42,707 nt of DNA, from positions 1-42,707 of IMG/VR virus record IMGVR_UViG_3300021406_000019. One strand, written 5' to 3'. Positions 303 through 41,018 of the stretch are shown piece by piece. Below the pieces are notes generated by a model, which made no database searches, was not told the DNA's origin, and was given only the letters and a program-made list of their open reading frames with translations. The stretch's first letter is position 1; every line of letters starts with the position of its first letter. A program made the position numbers and the translations under genes. Source of the stretch: a virus.

Positions 303-467
303 TTATTTTATATTAAGGGCAAGATTTATTCTCCTGTGGCATTCTTTGCACATTTTCTCCTTCGACATCGCCATATCACCCGTGGGAATGCGAATTTCGC
401 GCTTCTTTACCGTCCACGCGAGGCGGTTTCGCTTACAGAATTTACACTTGCGGAATAGCTGGAGCAT
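303..467 (-). CDS. Tiny two-CxxC zinc-ribbon-like protein, 54 aa
   Basis: A short frame starting with ATG inside the last codons of groEL (26-nt overlap) and ending TAA at 303. The 54-residue product has C8-x2-C11 and C40-x2-C43 separated by a basic linker (KKREIRIPTG), the layout of a four-cysteine zinc ribbon. No Shine-Dalgarno is visible, so translation probably relies on coupling to groEL. It is followed 5 nt later by another Cys-pair protein. It could act as a nucleic-acid-binding regulator, but nothing more specific can be said. Confidence 0.65.
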   Translation of the reverse strand: MLQLFRKCKFCKRNRLAWTVKKREIRIPTGDMAMSKEKMCKECHRRINLALNIK

Positions 468-1974
468 TGGTTTGGTCTTGTTCTGGAATGGTTATAATCG
501 ACCCGGCGGTGAGAATGGACGCCGCCACGCCAATAGCATTTTTCGCGGCATTTAACACGACGTCCGCCGCATCGACGATATTGGCCTCGAACATATCAAC
601 GATTTTTCCGCTTCGCGTATCTATACCTTTGTTCCGAGGTATTATTTTTCCATCAATTCCTGCATTTTTTAGAATTGTTGCGAAGGGAGCAGTTAAAGCA
701 AAATTCAGAATGTGGGTTCCGACAGTATCAGCTTCCAAATTTATATTCGCCAAGCTAACGCCTCCTCCCGCAACGACGCCATTCTCCAATGCGCACGCTG
801 CCGAGTTAATGGCGTCTTCGACTTTCAGTCTTCGGTAGGCCAAGGCTGATTCCGAATGTCCTCCCACGAAATAGCGCGCCGTATTCGTGTTAATCCGCGC
901 TGCGCGAAGCAATGCGGCGTCCGATCCGTCGACTTTCAGACCCATAATATGCTTGCCGAGGTCGTTTACGCCTTCGAGATAGGTACTATCTTTCGTTACG
1001 GTGATGTATTTCACTCCTCCCAAGTCTTCTGGCGTCGCTTTCTGGAGGGGTCTGCCCGATTGCGTGCTGATAATGTTCCCCCCCGTCGCGATTGCCAAGT
1101 CTTCCCACCACTCTTCGCGCCAGAGCACAGGCATTTTTATTGCCACCGTCTTGAATCCCCTGACTGCGCGGGTGCGGATAAGGTCGGCAATGACCGGCGG
1201 CTCGATTTCTTCGCAGAAGATAACCAATTCCCGCACGGAACTGCTGAATAACGTCTGGAACAGCTTCTCGAAGTCCATCGCCGAGGTTACTTTCTGCCGC
1301 AAGAGGAGCACAGATGTTTCTTTCCAACGCAAGGAAGACGTCAGTGCGCCTTTTTCGTCAATATCGCACATATAGGGACTCATGTAGGTCGCTCCGTCAA
1401 TCGTAATGCCTGTTCCGATTGAATATGAGTCCTCGGTGGTCTTTGACACATCCCAATGGATGATGCCTTCTTTACCGATTTTCTGGTAAATCTCCTGAAT
1501 CAACGCTCCGATTTCTTCATCCTCGGCCGAAATCGATGCTACGGCCTTTATTTCGTCCACGGTGATGGTTTTCTTCTGCGAGGCGATAGACGCTTCGATT
1601 AACGGAATGCACGCTTCTAGGGACGTTTTAAGCTCCATAGGGGGCACGGTGCCGATATGTTTCATGCCTTCCTCCAAAATCGCAGCCGTAAGCACGCAGG
1701 TCGTCGAGCTGCCGTCTCCCGACTGCTTGTTCGCACGGTTGATGCTTTCGAGCAGTATCCGATGACCCAAGCGTTCAATCGGATCGGCAAGGACTATGGC
1801 GTTTGCAATACTGTAACCATCATTCGTTAAAAAATACCCTGGTCGTTCCATAGTCTCGATGATACCGTTCGCTCCCGCCGTCCCCATCGTTTTCCCGACC
1901 GCTTCGGCGACTTTCTTAATGCCCGTAAGCATCTTTGCCCGCGTTGACTCTTCGGTAAATAAATTGTCTTTCAT
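442..1974 (-). CDS. groEL: Phage-encoded group I chaperonin (GroEL/Cpn60), 510 aa
   Basis: ATP-driven folding chaperonin of the GroEL family; the homologue forms a ring whose chamber closes on a GroES cap. The start chosen (MKDNLFTEESTRAKML) aligns with the GroEL N-terminus and overlaps the preceding stop as ATGA; a longer frame to 2097 overlaps the upstream gene and has no GroEL match. Nucleotide-site residues are present: D52 in 'TNDG', 'SGDGSSTT' with D87, and the late aspartate in 'KVEDA' (D387), followed by 'VVAGGG'. The apical 'SPYM' segment is also recognisable. The usual C-terminal GGM tail is absent (ends ...NAPAIPQV) and it is about 35 residues shorter than cellular GroEL. It probably works with the small GroES two genes upstream to fold virion proteins. 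It is divergent, so it was not recently copied from a host. Confidence 0.95.
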   Translation of the reverse strand: MKDNLFTEESTRAKMLTGIKKVAEAVGKTMGTAGANGIIETMERPGYFLTNDGYSIANAIVLADPIERLGHRILLESINRANKQSGDGSSTTCVLTAAILEEGMKHIGTVPPMELKTSLEACIPLIEASIASQKKTITVDEIKAVASISAEDEEIGALIQEIYQKIGKEGIIHWDVSKTTEDSYSIGTGITIDGATYMSPYMCDIDEKGALTSSLRWKETSVLLLRQKVTSAMDFEKLFQTLFSSSVRELVIFCEEIEPPVIADLIRTRAVRGFKTVAIKMPVLWREEWWEDLAIATGGNIISTQSGRPLQKATPEDLGGVKYITVTKDSTYLEGVNDLGKHIMGLKVDGSDAALLRAARINTNTARYFVGGHSESALAYRRLKVEDAINSAACALENGVVAGGGVSLANINLEADTVGTHILNFALTAPFATILKNAGIDGKIIPRNKGIDTRSGKIVDMFEANIVDAADVVLNAAKNAIGVAASILTAGSIITIPEQDQTNAPAIPQV

Positions 1975-2186
1975 TGTTTTGGATATTCGTGAATAAATAA
2001 CGGATCGTTCGGCTTCAGAATCTCGCGGAGGTGATAGCTCAGGTAGATTAACTTCGCTTCCAGCCTGAAATATTTCTGCAATCCGCACCGTTCGCACCGT
2101 TCTACCGCACCGTCCGGAAATTCCTGTACCGTTCTAAACTTATGCAACCAACTGCCTCTACAGTATGAATTTTGATATTTTCTCAT
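1971..2186 (-). CDS. Small CxxC protein between groES and groEL, 71 aa
   Basis: Unrecognised 71-residue protein. It has one early Cys (residue 9), the segment 'GSWLHKFRTVQEFPDGAVER', and 'CERCG' in the middle, which together could form a zinc site. Start ATG at 2186 overlaps the groES stop as ATGA, and its own stop overlaps the groEL start as ATGA, so it sits in a translationally coupled groES-x-groEL cassette. The position suggests joint expression with the chaperonin. Whether it touches the chaperonin ring is unknown. Confidence 0.75.
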   Translation of the reverse strand: MRKYQNSYCRGSWLHKFRTVQEFPDGAVERCERCGLQKYFRLEAKLIYLSYHLREILKPNDPLFIHEYPKQ

Positions 2187-3219: not shown

Positions 3220-4008
3220 CTAATTCGTGGAATTGAGATTCAAGAAAGGAAGCGGAGCATTCCCTGTCATGTACGTCGGCAAGGTTCCATTCCACTTAGA
3301 AATGGCTTGCAACTGAACATAATCCGCACCGCCTTGGCTGTTAATAGCCTCAGCCTGAATCTTAATCTGTTCCGCTTGGGCTTCCGCTTGGGTAATCGTC
3401 GTCGATGCGTCAATCTGAGCCTTCTGGTAAAGCTGTTCGGCGGTCAAGACATTCTGCTGCGCCGTTACCTTATCCTCGATAGCCTGATTGTACTGATCCG
3501 AAAACTGGAAATTGACGATATTCAGAGAGTCCATATTCACCCCAAACGCCTGCAATTTCGTCGTAAGCAACGTAAGCATGTCTTCCCGCGCTTTCTCACG
3601 TTCCGTTACCAACTCCTCGGCCGTATAGTTCGCCGTTACCGACTTGATTGATTCCTGGATGGCCGGATCAATAACTCGATTCTGGTAGTCTGAACCGATA
3701 GACTGGTAAATCTCGCCAGCGTCTTTAGGGTTAACGTGGAAGTTAATCGCGACGGTAGCCGTAATCTGCTGGAGGTCATTTGACGCCGCAGTCGCATCAA
3801 CTTGCTCTTTTTGGGTCTGCGTATCCATGAGGACTACGTTCTGCACCAAAGGAATCTGGACATATAATCCTGGATTGACGTTTCCCCGAACCGCACCAAA
3901 AGTCGTCCTGACACCGATGTAGCCCGCAGGGACAACCCCTACCGAAAGAAACAAGAGAATCAATACTATTACTCCGAAACCTACGCCAAAAATCGCGGTT
4001 TTATTCAT
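3220..4008 (-). CDS. SPFH/prohibitin-like membrane protein, 262 aa
   Basis: Band-7/SPFH family. Residues 5-28 form one N-terminal membrane helix, followed by 'VPAGYIGVRTTFGAV...NPGLYVQIPLVQNVV', the conserved entry to the SPFH domain, and 'TATVAINFHVNPKDAGEIYQSIG...RVIDPAIQESIKSVTANYTAEELVTEREKAR', the classic prohibitin core. The C-terminal half is a coiled coil (about residues 165-225) rich in Ala, Gln and Glu, as in stomatins and prohibitins, which oligomerise into membrane rings. It starts 5 nt after the ParB-like gene and an AAGGATG lies upstream. Cellular relatives organise membrane domains and regulate proteases or channels. Here it may form a host-membrane scaffold during infection. 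An SPFH protein is unusual in a 42-kb phage. Confidence 0.92.
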   Translation of the reverse strand: MNKTAIFGVGFGVIVLILLFLSVGVVPAGYIGVRTTFGAVRGNVNPGLYVQIPLVQNVVLMDTQTQKEQVDATAASNDLQQITATVAINFHVNPKDAGEIYQSIGSDYQNRVIDPAIQESIKSVTANYTAEELVTEREKAREDMLTLLTTKLQAFGVNMDSLNIVNFQFSDQYNQAIEDKVTAQQNVLTAEQLYQKAQIDASTTITQAEAQAEQIKIQAEAINSQGGADYVQLQAISKWNGTLPTYMTGNAPLPFLNLNSTN

Positions 4009-30881: not shown

Positions 30882-31409
30882 TTATTTATTTTTCTTTAAA
30901 TCGATAATGTCTTGGAATAGTGGGATAGATTTTAATTCATCTTTTCGTTTTCGCGGATGGTGATATTCGCAAAGCGTGATGCCATTGTTCACGTTATAAC
31001 GTTCTGCTGGATAGTCCCGCCACGGAAGGATGTGATGAGCAACAAGATTTCCTTCGCAATCTTTTCCTAAGAATTGGCATTTCCAATTATCTCGCAATTT
31101 TACTGTCCTCGCCCAAGCGAGATAAGCAGAATCGTTGCGTTCGTCGTTTCTCTTCCTGAATTCCAATCCTCCTTTCCAATTCCAAGCATTTTCGCCGCGA
31201 TGAGAATCGCTCATCTTTCGGCGTGTTTCGATAGAAGCTTTCCTCCCTTGATTTATTTTATTTCCACTAGCAAAAGGATTATTTGATTTTGATCCTTTTT
31301 TCACCCCTGCCAGAGGACTTCGCTTCATACCCTTGTAGAAACTTCCAGAATTTGCCTTCACTAAACCTTTCGTTCCTTTGTTCCACGGTATGTTCCCTTT
31401 TCGAGGCAT
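30882..31409 (-). CDS. HNH homing endonuclease with NUMOD3-like N-terminus, 175 aa
   Basis: 'IPWNKGTKGLVK', 'GVKKGSKSNNPF' and 'SIETRRKMSDSHRGENAWNW' are NUMOD-type DNA-contact segments. The HNH core is 'VKLRDNWKCQFLGKDCEG', 'LVAHHILPWRDYP', 'NGITLCEYHHPRK'. The start is set by TGTTAAAAT, six bases, ATG. It is inserted between two intact virion genes. Confidence 0.9.
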   Translation of the reverse strand: MPRKGNIPWNKGTKGLVKANSGSFYKGMKRSPLAGVKKGSKSNNPFASGNKINQGRKASIETRRKMSDSHRGENAWNWKGGLEFRKRNDERNDSAYLAWARTVKLRDNWKCQFLGKDCEGNLVAHHILPWRDYPAERYNVNNGITLCEYHHPRKRKDELKSIPLFQDIIDLKKNK

Positions 31410-31919: not shown

Positions 31920-32706
31920 TTATGCAACGCCGGTAATGCCGGTAAGAACCGCCTGACGAAACGGTGCCGTTGAAATCAGTTGACCGCCGAGGATCATGAA
32001 ACCGTTCACCGTTCCTTGGTTGTACGACCGAATCATGCCCGTCCACGTGAAGGCATCCGACGGCGCGTAGATTTTGTCCTCGTACACGTTGCCTTCGATG
32101 TCCTTCGCACGCGGGGAAACCCGTTCGCCCTCCCACCATCCCAAGGCATACCACTCGAGGTACTTCAAATTCATCATGTAGAAGTAGCCCGTCGTGATTT
32201 TCTTGTCGCGGGAGATTTCCATACCATCCCAATACTGCGAATCGTAGCCAGAGGTCGACGCGCTAAACTTCGGGCCTGCGCCACGGAAGTCAGACGTATT
32301 GCGCTGGAACGGCGTCTGGAGCTGCTCGAAGTAGCCCCATGTGGTGTAATCCGTGATGATAAAATCAGGCTTCACCGGACCATCTGAAATGGCATTCCAC
32401 AAGGTACGAATCTTGGCGAGGGAAATAGTTCCGCCCGAAGCCGTAACCGTGGAATTAAGACCCGTGTATGATGCACGCGTGAGACCGCCGTAGGTCGCGG
32501 CCACCGTACCGTTATCAATCGTATTCGCCAAACCGTTCGGGGCTTTGCCGCCGAACGACGTGCCATCACCCTGAAGGAAGTTGCCGATGTCATCCGCCGC
32601 ATCCTGTGCGCGTGATTCCATCGTAACCGACATAAGCTTCAAGGTCTGCATCGGCGTATCGTTGATCGAAAGGTCCGAACCTGCGAGAGAAACGTTCGTA
32701 GCGACA
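31920..32706 (-). CDS. Major capsid protein, exon 2
   Basis: 3' exon, 787 nt. Begins in the third base of the split Phe codon and continues VATNVSLAGSDLSINDTP, then 'LKLMSVTMESRAQDAADDIG', a capsid-type helix, 'FLQGDG', and the HK97-like C-terminal part 'YTTWGYFEQLQTPF', 'YFYMMNLKYLEWYALGWWEG', 'YNQGTVNGFMILGGQLI'. Joined to exon 1 (33433..33686) it gives 1041 nt, exactly 346 codons plus stop. An internal ATG (MQTLKL) is not the true start because it would lack the N-terminal arm. Confidence 0.88.
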
Positions 32707-32792
32707 CATTTTGTTACTACCCTTGCGGGCGGGGAAACCGCTTCGGATTTCCCTCTCTACATTCCTGTAGAGTTCAGACTATTACATCTCCA

Positions 32793-33293
32793 TTAGGAGT
32801 TCTTTCGTTTAGTCGTTGTTGGTGCACCGTTTTTATGATGAGTATAAAGAGTATATTTTTTCTTCGCTGCTTTCAATCTATCTTTGATGAGGATGCGTGC
32901 ATTTATTTCTTCGGCTGACAACTGCCGAAATCCACGCTTACCTTTCAAAGTTTCGAGATACTTTCCTTTCGTATTTTCAAATTCGAGAGCCAATTCGACT
33001 TGCTCTTTTTTGATTCTGACGAACGGAAAGATTGAAGAAAGAAATCGTTTTGCCGCTTGCGATCGAATATCCCAGCGATGGATGAAATTATCACCTCGCT
33101 CAATATAGGATACACTTCCACCGAATTTTTCCTTCAGAAAATCCATTATTCTTCCATCCTTTTGCGTTATGATAACTCGCAACATGAAAGAAGGACTTTT
33201 GCTGGCTTTTGAGGTGGTCGCTTGGTAGATATCCACATATCCTTCTCCGTCGAAAATTCCTGCGGCATAGGCTGAATCGATTTTATTGTTCAT
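32793..33293 (-). CDS. LAGLIDADG homing endonuclease in the capsid intron, 166 aa
   Basis: Single-motif LAGLIDADG enzyme, likely a homodimer: 'SAYAAGIFDGEGYVDIY' (residues 7-23) is the signature helix with its catalytic Asp/Glu, followed by the beta-saddle ('FMLRVIITQKDGRIMDFLKE', 'HRWDIRSQAAKRFLSSIFPF') and the second-helix region 'EQVELALEFENTKG'. It should cut intronless capsid alleles and drive intron homing. The last 12 codons overlay intron helices P6', P7 and P3', and the stop codon forms the P8 loop. It has its own consensus promoter in L6. Confidence 0.92.
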   Translation of the reverse strand: MNNKIDSAYAAGIFDGEGYVDIYQATTSKASKSPSFMLRVIITQKDGRIMDFLKEKFGGSVSYIERGDNFIHRWDIRSQAAKRFLSSIFPFVRIKKEQVELALEFENTKGKYLETLKGKRGFRQLSAEEINARILIKDRLKAAKKKYTLYTHHKNGAPTTTKRKNS

Positions 33294-33299
33294 ACCTAC

Positions 33300-33327
33300 A
33301 TTATACCCATACTAGAAACGATGTCAA
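33300..33327 (-). promoter_or_regulatory. Consensus sigma70 promoter inside the intron
   Basis: TTGACA (33327-33322), 16-bp spacer, TATAAT (33305-33300), six bases (GTAGGT), ATG at 33293. Both hexamers are perfect. The -35 begins at the base following the 5' strand of P6. Confidence 0.82.
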
Positions 33328-33432
33328 GGTGCTTCCAAGGCGTTATCCATTTACGCAAAAGCGCAGTTGGGAACTTCGCCGTATATTAGAAAGAATTTAA
33401 CGACGTCTGTGAGCTGTGTAAGAACTTTCTTA

Positions 33433-33686
33433 AACGTCGGATAAAAAGTCATGTTAACCGAAACCGGCTGCTGCGTTACCGGCAAGAGGTCATAGCCATT
33501 GAAAGCAACGGAGGCAAGGCCCTTCTGATATTTAATCGGAAAGAGCATCTGCGAACCGTTCCACTTCTTTGTCTTTGACATCAGCTTGCCGAAGAAATAG
33601 TTATCACGAAGAACCTGGTCGACCCAGTAAGGGGCCAAGTATTGGTTCGTAGTCGTAGTAACATTTACTCCTGGGACTGAGGCCAT
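33433..33686 (-). CDS. Major capsid protein, exon 1
   Basis: 5' exon, 254 nt, 84 codons plus two bases of a Phe codon. N-terminal arm 'MASVPGVNVTTTTNQYLAPY' followed by 'VDQVLRDNYFFGKLMSKTKK' and '...QPVSVNMTFYPTF'. Read through without splicing it would end after 27 more meaningless codons, giving 111 aa. Splicing joins YPT-F to VATNVSLAG in frame. The gene follows the scaffold-like gene, as usual in head operons. Confidence 0.88.
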
Positions 33687-36318: not shown

Positions 36319-38283
36319 TTATTTCCCCACGGGAACGCTCGCCAGCTTGTTTTCGGTAATCGCTTTCTGCTGATCCATCTTCGCCTGCGCGGACTGCGAC
36401 TCGTGTTGCATCTTCTGCTGATGCGCCTGCTCCTTGTGCTGCATCTGCTGGCCGTGCGCCTGCTCCCCTTGGGCAAGCTGTTGCTGCCCCTGGGCAGCCT
36501 GCTGTTGCAACTGCTGTTGCTGGGCTTGCTGCTGGGCTTGCGCCTGTTGCTGGGCGATTTGCTGCACCTGTTGCCAGAGTTCCGGAAAGTTAATCTGCAA
36601 GTACATCGCCTTGTCCGTAACCCACAAAACGCCGTCTCCTGCCGATTCATCCGGATCGGGGAAATCAAGCGTCTCTAAGAGCGTCTTCGGGCCGATTGCT
36701 CCCGCCTGATAGAGCTGCAACGCCATATTGCTTTCCGACACTTCGTCTTTCGGCTTCATGGAGTTCGGAGCTACCGTAACGATAAGCTGGCGGTCAATGT
36801 CTTGGGCTTGGAGCGTAACGTATTCCACCGCTTTCCCGACACCCATCACTGCCGCGAAATGCTTTTCATCGTAGAAGACCATATACAGTTGCGTCATCCA
36901 GTTGAATGCGCTGCGGGCAACCTGTTCAATAGCATCGCCAATGCCCCCGCCGATACGCGAGGTATCGTGGGACTGGTTGATAATCTGGCCACGCGCCGTC
37001 TCGTCAGGCTTCGGAGGCTGGGAAGCAATGCCCTGGACGCCCCACGAGGAGCGCAGATTATTCATGTTGTTCTCGATATTGTCGAAATACCCATTCGGGA
37101 TGGTCGGAGCTTGGAGGCGGACAATCGCTTCACCGATGGGTTTGCCAGGCGGAACAAGGACTTTTCCCACCCCTCGCGTCAAGGCATTCGACGCTTGCTT
37201 TGCCGTCTCTTGGTTGAAATTGTCCTCCGAAAACGCAATGCCGTTGTTTCCTTGGGCAACGTTCATCTCGATTTGTTCGATACCACGGCTGATGTTCTCT
37301 TGGTTCGGAATGTTCTGTTCGATAAGACCCGTGATGTCGTGCGGCCTGTCTTGCAGGGAAAATACCGAAAGGAAGATATAGGGCTTCTTGGGGGATGCGA
37401 AGTGGTTTCGCTTTTCGGGCATCGGCGTTCCCGTCATTTCATCCACTTCATTGTCGTCCTGATAATTGAAATATTCGTTCTTGTGCTTGTCGAGAATGAC
37501 TTTTTTGAAGGTTGAAAAGCAATAATCGTCGTTCCACCATTCGGTATAGACGACTTCCGTGCCGAGATTATCCTTGCCTTTCACGACCATCGTGATGTAC
37601 TCCTTGTGCTTCGGGAAGAGTTCGATAAGCTTCTCGGCCGTAACCGTAATCCGTTCGCCGAGCCACGAGGAGAAATCTCCATAGGCATCAACGAATCCGT
37701 TCGGATCGAAGATGAAATCCTGAATCTTCCGGTTCTCTACGGCAATGTCGCCGATTTTCTCATCCCAGCCTGGCTTCAGGACGCCCAGTTGGTAGATAGA
37801 CCATTGCCGCACCATGACCGCTAATTTCCGGCGCAGGATAAGCTGGTCGGCGTGGAATTCAAGCATGGTCTTTACGGCGTTGCAGATGGCATTGCCTTCC
37901 TTGGTGTTGTCGGCATAAACAACCGGATCAGGGTCTTGGGCTAACGCAGCCGCAAGGAACGTCTCTTCGGCCTCGAACTGGATATTCGCAGCCACGGGAA
38001 CGTCATCCTGCGGCGCAGAATTGTCCTGAATGCGTCCGAGGTACGAACGCATGTTCCGCTTGAACATCGTGCGAATCTTGCCCTCGTAGGGGGCGTAGGC
38101 CTTTTCCCACTGGTCGCGGAGCGAGAGCAGTTCTTCATCCGCCATCGGCAAATCAAGGACATCAAGCTTTTCGCTTAAAACGCCTTCAGGCGAAACATCG
38201 CCCTTACGCATAGGGATTTTATTGACCGAACTCTCGACGAGGTCGCTGACGCCTTGAATGTTTAGGGAGAAAGAATCTTCCAT
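36319..38283 (-). CDS. Portal protein, P22-type, 654 aa
   Basis: Forms the dodecameric DNA gate at one capsid vertex. N-terminal helices 'LRDQWEKAYAPYEGKIRTMF', 'NIQFEAEETFLAAALAQDPD', then 'VRQWSIYQLGVLKPGWDEKI', 'RKIQDFIFDPNGFVDAYGDF' and a clip/stem region 'LQAPTIPNGYFDNIENNMNN'. The C-terminal 90 residues are an extreme Gln/Ala coiled coil, reminiscent of P22 portal's barrel. Stop/ATG adjacency with the upstream gene (TAA-ATG). Length and order fit podovirus portals. Confidence 0.92.
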   Translation of the reverse strand: MEDSFSLNIQGVSDLVESSVNKIPMRKGDVSPEGVLSEKLDVLDLPMADEELLSLRDQWEKAYAPYEGKIRTMFKRNMRSYLGRIQDNSAPQDDVPVAANIQFEAEETFLAAALAQDPDPVVYADNTKEGNAICNAVKTMLEFHADQLILRRKLAVMVRQWSIYQLGVLKPGWDEKIGDIAVENRKIQDFIFDPNGFVDAYGDFSSWLGERITVTAEKLIELFPKHKEYITMVVKGKDNLGTEVVYTEWWNDDYCFSTFKKVILDKHKNEYFNYQDDNEVDEMTGTPMPEKRNHFASPKKPYIFLSVFSLQDRPHDITGLIEQNIPNQENISRGIEQIEMNVAQGNNGIAFSEDNFNQETAKQASNALTRGVGKVLVPPGKPIGEAIVRLQAPTIPNGYFDNIENNMNNLRSSWGVQGIASQPPKPDETARGQIINQSHDTSRIGGGIGDAIEQVARSAFNWMTQLYMVFYDEKHFAAVMGVGKAVEYVTLQAQDIDRQLIVTVAPNSMKPKDEVSESNMALQLYQAGAIGPKTLLETLDFPDPDESAGDGVLWVTDKAMYLQINFPELWQQVQQIAQQQAQAQQQAQQQQLQQQAAQGQQQLAQGEQAHGQQMQHKEQAHQQKMQHESQSAQAKMDQQKAITENKLASVPVGK

Positions 38284-38860: not shown

Positions 38861-40549
38861 TCATAGTTCAACGCGTTCGCCAAGCATAATCTGATTTGCT
38901 GGCACGCCCGCGTCATCGACAATGACCGCGCGTCTTACAAGTCCCAAGATATTCTCGCCACCCACCACCTTCGCCATCTGGTCGCCGTATTTCGACATCC
39001 CTACCAAAGCGTAAAGGAGCGCATGGGCGTAGTGATCCGGCCCGTTGCGCTTCCACACGTATTCTGCGCCGTAGAGCGTCCTATTATCCGCTTCAGGCGT
39101 TTCTTTGGCGGCAATCTTTTCGCGGTACATATTGCCGAAATGCGAGGCGAACTCAGCCCATTCGTCCTTCGTGCCATTCAGTCTGACCCGTCCGATATCC
39201 CGCATTTGCTCGACCATGAGCGTTATCATGCGATTCCGGTCGACTTCGACTTTCATGTATTCGTCGTCCTTGCCCCAGCGAATCATTTCCAAGCTCTTGC
39301 GGTCTTTGCGATAGAAACAGAGGAATACGCGACCAGGATACTCAGCTTGAAGCTTCCGCACGCCAATCAGGTCTCCTCCCTGGTCGAAGACTGCGATAGA
39401 ACGGGGAAACCTGCGCAGATGGAGCCGTATAACGTCATACGGATCGGTGCTGGCCGTAATCGTTGTCTCGTGGTCGTAAAAGAAAACGCCGTCCTTGTTC
39501 ATCAGGACATAGTGAATTCCGTGGCCGGTATCCGCGCCGATGACGGTTATGCCTTCCTGGGGGTTCACAGAGTCGACGCAGTTACGAAGAACGGCCAAGG
39601 GTTCGATTCTGTCCTCTGAACCGATATACGGCAGCCCTAGGACGTAGTTGTAGAAGTATTGTTTGTCTTTGAGAGGATCGCGGAATGCCTTAATAATGTC
39701 CTTCGCGGCTTTATTAAACAACATCAACTGACTTATATGGAATCCGGAAAATTCATAGCCACCTACTATCTCGTTATCCCATGGCACACCGTCCTTATTG
39801 ATCCAACGTCCGTTAATTCTTGCCTCATCAGACAATTCAACTTTACAGAAAGAACAAACATACAGTTCTCTTTCCATATCTATATTCCCCGGCCATGTCA
39901 AAACCTGTTCCTTTTTGCAGGCATCGCATCGAATATTCCACTCCTTCTGGTCTGACAACTTCCAATAAATATCGACACCATGCCCGACCAAAGAAGGATG
40001 CGAGAAAAACCAACGCCATTTGTCTTCCTCTCTCTCCTGAGCTTCCTGCCGGGTTTCGTATTGCGTTATGGTAGGTTGGTCGCTGGCATCCAATTCGTCA
40101 TGCACGTTCAAGGATGAAGAAACCATCATCGCCTGAGTCTTACCCACTGTTCCACGAAGATAAAGCATATTATCACCTATTTTCTTCTGCTCGATCGTGT
40201 CATGATCGGCTGTCCAATTCTTCAAAACCTGATTTTGAGATATTATGCGGTTGAACTTTCCGCCAACCATATCCTGCACATCCGACTGAGTGGGTAGCGT
40301 ATAAATGGCATCTTTCTTTTTATTCTTAACGACATAGCAGACCTTCACGAAGGTCATCTCGCTAGCTCCTACCTGCGGCGGTTTAAACCAAACCTGCTTC
40401 GGAGAAAGATCGGCTATTAAAGCCCGCGCAAACTTCCGCTTTTCAAACTCAAATGGCAATCCATTGGAAGTTCTTAACTCATTTTGTAGCATCCATGGGC
40501 CAATATACAGTTCAGACGCTTGTCTCAATTCTTCGGAGGTGTAAGGCAT
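38861..40549 (-). CDS. terL: Terminase large subunit, lambda gpA-like, 562 aa
   Basis: DNA-packaging motor. The ATPase part has a deviant Walker A 'KPPQVGASEM' (about 56-65) and Walker B 'VHDELD' (149-154). A zinc ribbon 'CDAC...CSFC' (208-235) is typical of the gpA family. The nuclease part has 'VIGADTGHG' with D340, 'IAVFDQGGD' with D389 and 'DHYAHALLYALVG' near the end. Start MPYTSEELRQ lies inside the end of the HNH gene (38-nt overlap). gpA-type terminases often cut at cos sites, which would make the virion genome linear with cohesive ends. Confidence 0.93.
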   Translation of the reverse strand: MPYTSEELRQASELYIGPWMLQNELRTSNGLPFEFEKRKFARALIADLSPKQVWFKPPQVGASEMTFVKVCYVVKNKKKDAIYTLPTQSDVQDMVGGKFNRIISQNQVLKNWTADHDTIEQKKIGDNMLYLRGTVGKTQAMMVSSSLNVHDELDASDQPTITQYETRQEAQEREEDKWRWFFSHPSLVGHGVDIYWKLSDQKEWNIRCDACKKEQVLTWPGNIDMERELYVCSFCKVELSDEARINGRWINKDGVPWDNEIVGGYEFSGFHISQLMLFNKAAKDIIKAFRDPLKDKQYFYNYVLGLPYIGSEDRIEPLAVLRNCVDSVNPQEGITVIGADTGHGIHYVLMNKDGVFFYDHETTITASTDPYDVIRLHLRRFPRSIAVFDQGGDLIGVRKLQAEYPGRVFLCFYRKDRKSLEMIRWGKDDEYMKVEVDRNRMITLMVEQMRDIGRVRLNGTKDEWAEFASHFGNMYREKIAAKETPEADNRTLYGAEYVWKRNGPDHYAHALLYALVGMSKYGDQMAKVVGGENILGLVRRAVIVDDAGVPANQIMLGERVEL

Positions 40550-41018
40550 AAGTATTTGTTTTAGTATGGCACGAAACACAAAGAGTTCGACCGTTCGATA
40601 AAACCATCCGCAATTCTGGGTAGGAAGAAAACGGCTTAATATGATCTGCCTGTAATGCACCGCCGCGTTGACCACACGAAACGCAAGTATATCTATCCCG
40701 TTCAAATACCGCCCTACGCCAAGCCTTGTATTCAAAGCTGGTTCTTATTTTCTGGTTAATAGGCGTTATTCCTCCGCGCCACCAATTATGATGCTCTCTT
40801 TGCGCCCGGCGTGTAGCACTCATCTTCTCTCTTGTCTCTGGGGAAAGAAGCTGTCCTTTTCTCGATCGGCTTATTTTTCGCTTTGTTTCCTCGGTTAAAA
40901 CATGGCCTGTCAGAGCAATACTCAACCTGCGCCTAGTTTCGTTCGACTTAGGAATACCCTTGTGAGCGATGCTCATTTTCTCGCGGGATTCAGCAGACAT
41001 TTTACTGCCCTTTTTCAT
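40512..41018 (-). CDS. HNH homing endonuclease between terS and terL, 168 aa
   Basis: Three NUMOD3-like repeats ('SREKMSIAHKG', 'EETKRKISRSRKG', 'PETREKMSATRRA') then the HNH core 'RDRYTCVSCGQRGGALQADH' and 'NGRTLCVSCHTKTNTY'. It overlaps terS by 17 nt at its start and terL by 38 nt at its end, so it has no promoter of its own and is expressed by coupling. An alternative ATG lies at 41000. It likely spreads by cutting terminase loci lacking it. Confidence 0.88.
   Translation of the reverse strand: MKKGSKMSAESREKMSIAHKGIPKSNETRRRLSIALTGHVLTEETKRKISRSRKGQLLSPETREKMSATRRAQREHHNWWRGGITPINQKIRTSFEYKAWRRAVFERDRYTCVSCGQRGGALQADHIKPFSSYPELRMVLSNGRTLCVSCHTKTNTYALHLRRIETSV

Follow-up and report, generated by a model that had tools for sequence, protein, structure and literature searches.

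Group I introns and intron-like insertions in phage major capsid genes have been described in several lineages. In mycobacteriophage LittleE an 819 bp insertion lies in the major capsid gene; its class was given as 'most likely group I', and splicing was demonstrated by RT-PCR and N-terminal sequencing (PMC3706429). A capsid-gene intron of the lactococcal phage Tuc2009 is cited in the same paper (PMC3706429). Among crAss-like phages, the Delta and Zeta groups repeatedly carry group I introns in their major capsid genes, one of which is in five fragments (PMC7886860). The intron endonuclease gp210 of phage PhiPA3 acts as a weapon between phages (PMC11620839).

Here we examine a capsid-gene insert in the 42,707-nt IMG/VR virus record IMGVR_UViG_3300021406_000019, the whole of which is referred to as the window. 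LittleE and the window are alike in that exon 1 ends in U, the intron ends in G and an I-CreI-related LAGLIDADG endonuclease lies inside (PMC3706429), a likeness drawn from the insertion gene, intron ends and endonuclease. In LittleE the endonuclease gene lies on the opposite strand, whereas in the window gene and intron share a strand, and the gene occupies the P6 loop behind a promoter-like sequence of its own. The crAss-like carriers infect Bacteroidetes in the gut and have genomes much larger than that of the phage studied here, and their introns were detected by endonuclease domains (PMC7886860), in contrast to the present one, detected by ribozyme structure. With capsid-gene introns already published for LittleE, Tuc2009 and crAss-like phages, the kind of intron is known; less ordinary are the density of introns in one gene, a class falling below the Rfam cut-off, and a displaced pair of insertions.

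Capsid gene and empty insertion sites

The preliminary description of this DNA proposed that a capsid protein is split over two frames, and its coordinates and arithmetic were right. Joining the exons at 33433/33432 and 32707/32706 gives 254 + 787 = 1041 nt, encoding 346 aa plus a stop, with a predicted junction reading ..ACG UU/U GUC.. (slash at the splice site; Table 1). Exon 1 matches positions 11-88 of the phrog_9953 (major head protein) profile (E 1.6e-6) and exon 2 positions 92-328 (E 1.4e-25), consecutive stretches of one PHROG family. The exon-1 reading frame stops at 33351-33353, within the insert, and mechanical calling yields two minus-strand ORFs (33351-33686 and 31920-32651) belonging to one gene, just as had been anticipated for routine annotation. 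Because the Rfam group I model misses this class, standard annotation would report a pair of truncated capsid genes without any RNA feature.

The record has a single capsid locus; upstream of it are genes for a P22-like portal (36319-38283) and the terminase large subunit (38861-40735), and the direct neighbours keep the same order in relatives. A Pfam search with the capsid proteins returned no match. An AlphaFold model of the uninterrupted orthologue L002 was of low confidence (pLDDT 40), too low to prove an HK97 fold; HK97-fold capsids made up nearly all of its top structural matches (best 7f38, E 6.7e-4). A free-standing HNH endonuclease gene with a NUMOD3 motif lies between two structural genes at 30882-31409 (-); this slot is only ~36 nt long in the close relative L035, and the equivalent slot holds an HNH gene in L006, L047 and L109. 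The phage also encodes a GroEL-like chaperonin at 442-2097 (-) (phrog_5725, E 8e-84), and a Cpn60 is annotated in a TM7 phage whose capsid protein is distantly related.

Table 1 Features of the interrupted capsid gene, its intron and the nested endonuclease (window positions)
Feature	Position	Strand	Details
Exon 1, major capsid protein gene	33433..33686	-	254 nt; codons 1-84 and two bases of codon 85
Group I intron	32707..33432	-	726 nt; starts U(AAGAAAG), ends ..AAAAUG (terminal G)
Internal guide sequence GACGUCG	33401..33407	-	pairs 7/7 with exon-1 end CGACGUU (33439-33433)
P3 5' strand UUCUUUC	33389..33395	-	pairs with 32800-32806
P4, GGCG 33377-33380 with CGCC 33339-33342	33339..33380	-	encloses P5
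P6/P6a 5' strands UUGG-AA-GCACC	33328..33338	-	pair with 32819-32828
Promoter-like TTGACA-N16-TATAAT, exact consensus	33300..33327	-	P6 loop, just upstream of ATG at 33293
LAGLIDADG homing endonuclease ORF, I-CreI/I-MsoI-like	32793..33293	-	166 aa; in P6 loop
P6a 3' (GGUGC) and P6 3' (CCAA) strands	32819..32828	-
P7 5' strand GACUA	32810..32814	-	pairs with 32777-32781
P3 3' strand GAAAGAA	32800..32806	-
P8 hairpin CUCC-UAAU-GGAG	32788..32799	-	also in minimum-energy fold
P7 3' strand UAGUC	32777..32781	-	guanosine-binding helix
P9 hairpin CUCUACA-GGAA-UGUAGAG	32755..32772	-
P9.1	32732-32753	-	minimum-energy fold
P9.2 with GCAA loop	32719-32730	-	minimum-energy fold
Exon 2, major capsid protein gene	31920..32706	-	787 nt including stop

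A first set of relatives comprised 33 from a scan of IMG/VR and one from a scan of species genomes. All 34 are uninterrupted across the window's junction, YPTF running unbroken into VATN as the preliminary description had predicted for homologues. The closest, L035, on a contig binned as Candidatus Hydrogenedentes, is 95% identical in exon 2 and has the insertion site empty. A wider scan raised the IMG/VR set to 81 capsid loci, 64 of them uninterrupted and 13 interrupted; in the other four the N-terminal part was not reached, and two of these (L043 and L068) clearly carry an intron-like core a short way 5' of codon 20. Approximately 15 of roughly 80 capsid genes in this phage group (19%, a count that includes the near-duplicate loci L011/L012 and L040/L041) are thus interrupted, so that capsid-gene ORF calls are unreliable in the group. 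Introns in this gene had been described as uncommon; the published cases and an interruption rate of about one in five make them less rare than implied.

The capsid gene of the group has about seven insertion sites. The window's intron is inserted after base 254, and other sites lie near codons 20-21, 27-28, 29-30, 48-50, 51 and 121. By eye, a different-looking intron type is present in L023, L034 and L083, with HNH-like ORFs in L023 and L034, and a third type in L035, L068 and L081; an Rfam search at E 0.01 detected none of the introns in these six loci. Four loci (L049, L060, L092 and L011) have two introns per capsid gene, one near codon 20 and the other at codon 50 or 83, and in L040 and L041 two introns apparently flank a mini-exon (GGGGTAGACCAGGTATTGCGT) some 20 nt long.

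Ribozyme core and covariation

The catalytic core that marks a group I intron, P3, P4, P6, P7 and P8 with the P3/P7 pseudoknot, was found in the window, as were all the helices named beforehand, from P1 to P9.2, and the terminal G. Its order, P3-P4-P5-P6-P7-P3'-P8-P7'-P9, is that of the Rfam model RF00028 (Intron_gpI), to which the relative L060 aligns end to end. Compensatory changes occur in relatives at 6/7 pairs of P3, 8/8 scored pairs of P6/P6a and 4/4 pairs of P8; P7 shows a compensatory A-U to G-C change, and P4 is unchanged except for one G-U. Left to fold by minimum energy, the 129 nt at the 3' end form P7, P8, P9, P9.1 and P9.2 unprompted (z -3.2). A perfect hairpin, UAAGAA-AG-UUCUUA (33432-33419, minus strand), stands directly 3' of the 5' splice site, within the P1 loop.

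Covariation was scored over 28 pairs (P3-P4-P6/P6a-P7-P8) in 26 cores from relatives, with the window held out. In these cores 97.0% of cells were paired, versus 71.4% in shuffled and 33-44% in slid controls, and the covariation score of 0.616 compares with 0.156 after shuffling and no more than 0.117 after sliding; both sides changed at 19/28 pairs. The helices had been drafted by eye from the window and some of its relatives, which makes the slid control somewhat favourable, but the margin over the controls is large.

A covariance model built from the relatives' cores (R1), again leaving the window out of training, matched the 5' half of the intron at 33267-33396 (-) (35.3 bits, E 6.9e-6) and the 3' half at 32768-32894 (-) (43.2 bits, E 1.2e-7). 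As P6 is interrupted by the endonuclease ORF, the model matched one half at a time, and each match aligns convincingly in the genuine half only. Up to E 10, R1 found nothing in the window beyond these two halves, both on the correct strand. The check initially suggested, a search with RF00028, gave a sub-threshold match in the window (16.5 bits, E 0.14, against a gathering cut-off of 50). At the gathering score this model matched neither the window nor the relatives; scores were 16.5-21.8 bits, all below 50, which is a detection cut-off and no defining property of group I introns. Since relatives with overwhelming covariation fail too, the shortfall is the model's limit for this class and does not speak against an intron. 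The group I identity that had been proposed is instead upheld by the held-out covariation and the R1 match, and the 726-nt insert is, on these sequence grounds, a group I intron well supported by relatives.

Splice sites and guide sequence

P1 has seven pairs, with its terminal U.G exactly at the 5' splice site; the next best pairing with a U.G has four. A terminal guanosine stands at the 3' splice site (..AACAAAAUG/UGUCGC), and pairing of exon 2 with the three bases 5' of the guide could form P10 (3 pairs). In L011, L049, L060 and L092 the guide pairs 7/7 with the exon flanking that intron, a sequence other than the window's, and P10 comprises 5 pairs. That each guide fits its own insertion site is strong sequence evidence that these introns would function, and together with the empty sites it supports the earlier prediction that the splice sites restore an in-frame 346-aa capsid protein. 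An automatic search found no guide for a few other introns, e.g., L039. Guide pairing alone is insufficient as evidence, as 30 U.G-ended 7-mer sites on the window's minus strand pair as well; a 7-mer match carries weight only when combined with the exact junction and a position next to P3.

Homing endonuclease

The preliminary description was right about the ribozyme in the insert and had left out the nested 166-aa LAGLIDADG endonuclease ORF. The protein matches PF00961 slightly under the Pfam cut-off (20.7 bits, E 8e-4; cut-off 23.1), and its residues 4-107 align to PDB chains of I-CreI and I-MsoI (E 3e-7 to 0.03). Like those enzymes it is encoded in a group I intron and has a single motif, here AGIFDGEG, with the acidic catalytic residue kept. 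The ~60 C-terminal residues extend beyond the I-CreI/I-MsoI match and are partly encoded by ribozyme core strands, the 3' end of the ORF overlapping P6a', P6', P7, P3' and P8. The I-CreI and I-MsoI introns are in organellar rRNA, whereas this one is in a phage gene. A further match, to phrog_5046, carries the label 'HNH endonuclease', which is misleading given the LAGLIDADG motif and the kinship with I-CreI and I-MsoI.

Exact consensus promoter hexamers are found at the same place in L049/L137, L092, L011/L012 and L139. With a promoter-like sequence of its own, the endonuclease is probably expressible apart from the late capsid transcript, and independent expression from the predicted promoter appears likely.

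Proposed mechanism and alternative explanations

The exons, empty sites, conserved structure, P1 match and endonuclease homology, all directly observed, point to a mobile group I intron in the capsid gene, with predicted ribozyme splicing, a predicted 346-aa product and a nested homing endonuclease, an explanation of which we are highly confident. Splicing would be expected from the empty sites and known group I biology. In the mRNA, the exon-1 end would pair with the guide, placing the U.G at the cut; guanosine bound in P7 would attack after the terminal U of exon 1, and the freed exon 1 would then attack after the terminal G, joining the exons into the message for the 346-aa protein. Probably acting as a homodimer, as I-CreI does, the endonuclease would cleave capsid genes lacking the intron at the conserved stretch, and repair would copy the intron in. 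Cleavage, homing and promoter activity would be in keeping with known group I and homing biology, and the patchy distribution and empty sites are consistent with site cleavage and homing.

The record is a metagenome assembly, which leaves some room for a group I intron that has lost ribozyme or endonuclease activity, the capsid gene being damaged or a second copy used. This is improbable given that the core helices are intact and the invariant positions of P7 and P4 kept, the endonuclease ORF is open with its motif preserved, both exon frames are intact, exon 2 is 87-95% identical to its closest uninterrupted orthologues, and the record has one capsid locus. Still less probable are two separate capsid polypeptides, or frameshifting or bypass without an intron (an assembly error or programmed recoding). 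The two mechanically called ORFs favour such readings, but both fall on adjoining stretches of a single protein family, which relatives encode as one protein; neither an assembly error nor recoding would be expected to produce 726 nt of insert with a covarying ribozyme structure and a matched P1. Least probable of all, to the point of being negligible, is an intein or other in-frame protein insertion. Many inteins do contain a LAGLIDADG endonuclease, but the stop codon inside the insert closes the exon-1 frame and excludes translation through it (table 11), the endonuclease is read from a separate ORF with a start and a stop codon, a search for a protein-splicing domain found none, and the RNA structure covaries.

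Related introns and a possible displacement

The L049 and L092 introns are inserted after codon 83 (FYP/TF), 5 nt upstream of the window's site. Their endonucleases are 63% (L049) and 60% (L092) identical to that of the window, with a clade support of 0.99, and their cores 81% and 80% identical; the guides are unrelated (GGGGUAG versus GACGUCG). A single endonuclease footprint may cover both sites. A tentative joint reading, to which we give rather less than even credence, is that the capsid gene is an intron battleground and that the window's intron is a displaced descendant of the one found 5 nt upstream in relatives, with splice sites shifted by 5 nt and a guide rewritten to match. If true, the displacement may show a homing intron that acquired a new ribozyme target without giving up its target in DNA; like PhiPA3 gp210, the endonuclease may in addition be directed against intronless competitor phages. 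The displaced pair lends itself to a natural test of how the specificities of ribozyme and endonuclease come apart.

Distribution of the intron class

A 15-base 5' core motif (CTAATATACGGCGAA) is present in 75 IMG/VR stretches, not all of which are introns: many then show the P7-P3'-P8-P7' motif, and some lone matches are due to chance. The 26 cores scored for covariation were taken from the stretches with both motifs. A covariance model from the collected cores would recover introns in many environmental phages. A candidate second intron at 3687 (+), from a AGTCTGAAC match, was rejected, with 6 matches observed against 6.4 expected and none found there by R1. Among cultured-phage DNA relatives, only the 3' core was matched, in one Desulfovibrio phage deposited twice. 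This phage, SRB7757 (PV062637; L166 1923-2052), carries the same intron class, apparently in an anaerobic ribonucleotide reductase gene (putative nrdD; gene identity by eye); the same gene also seems to hold an intein, and an HNH-like ORF follows the intron.
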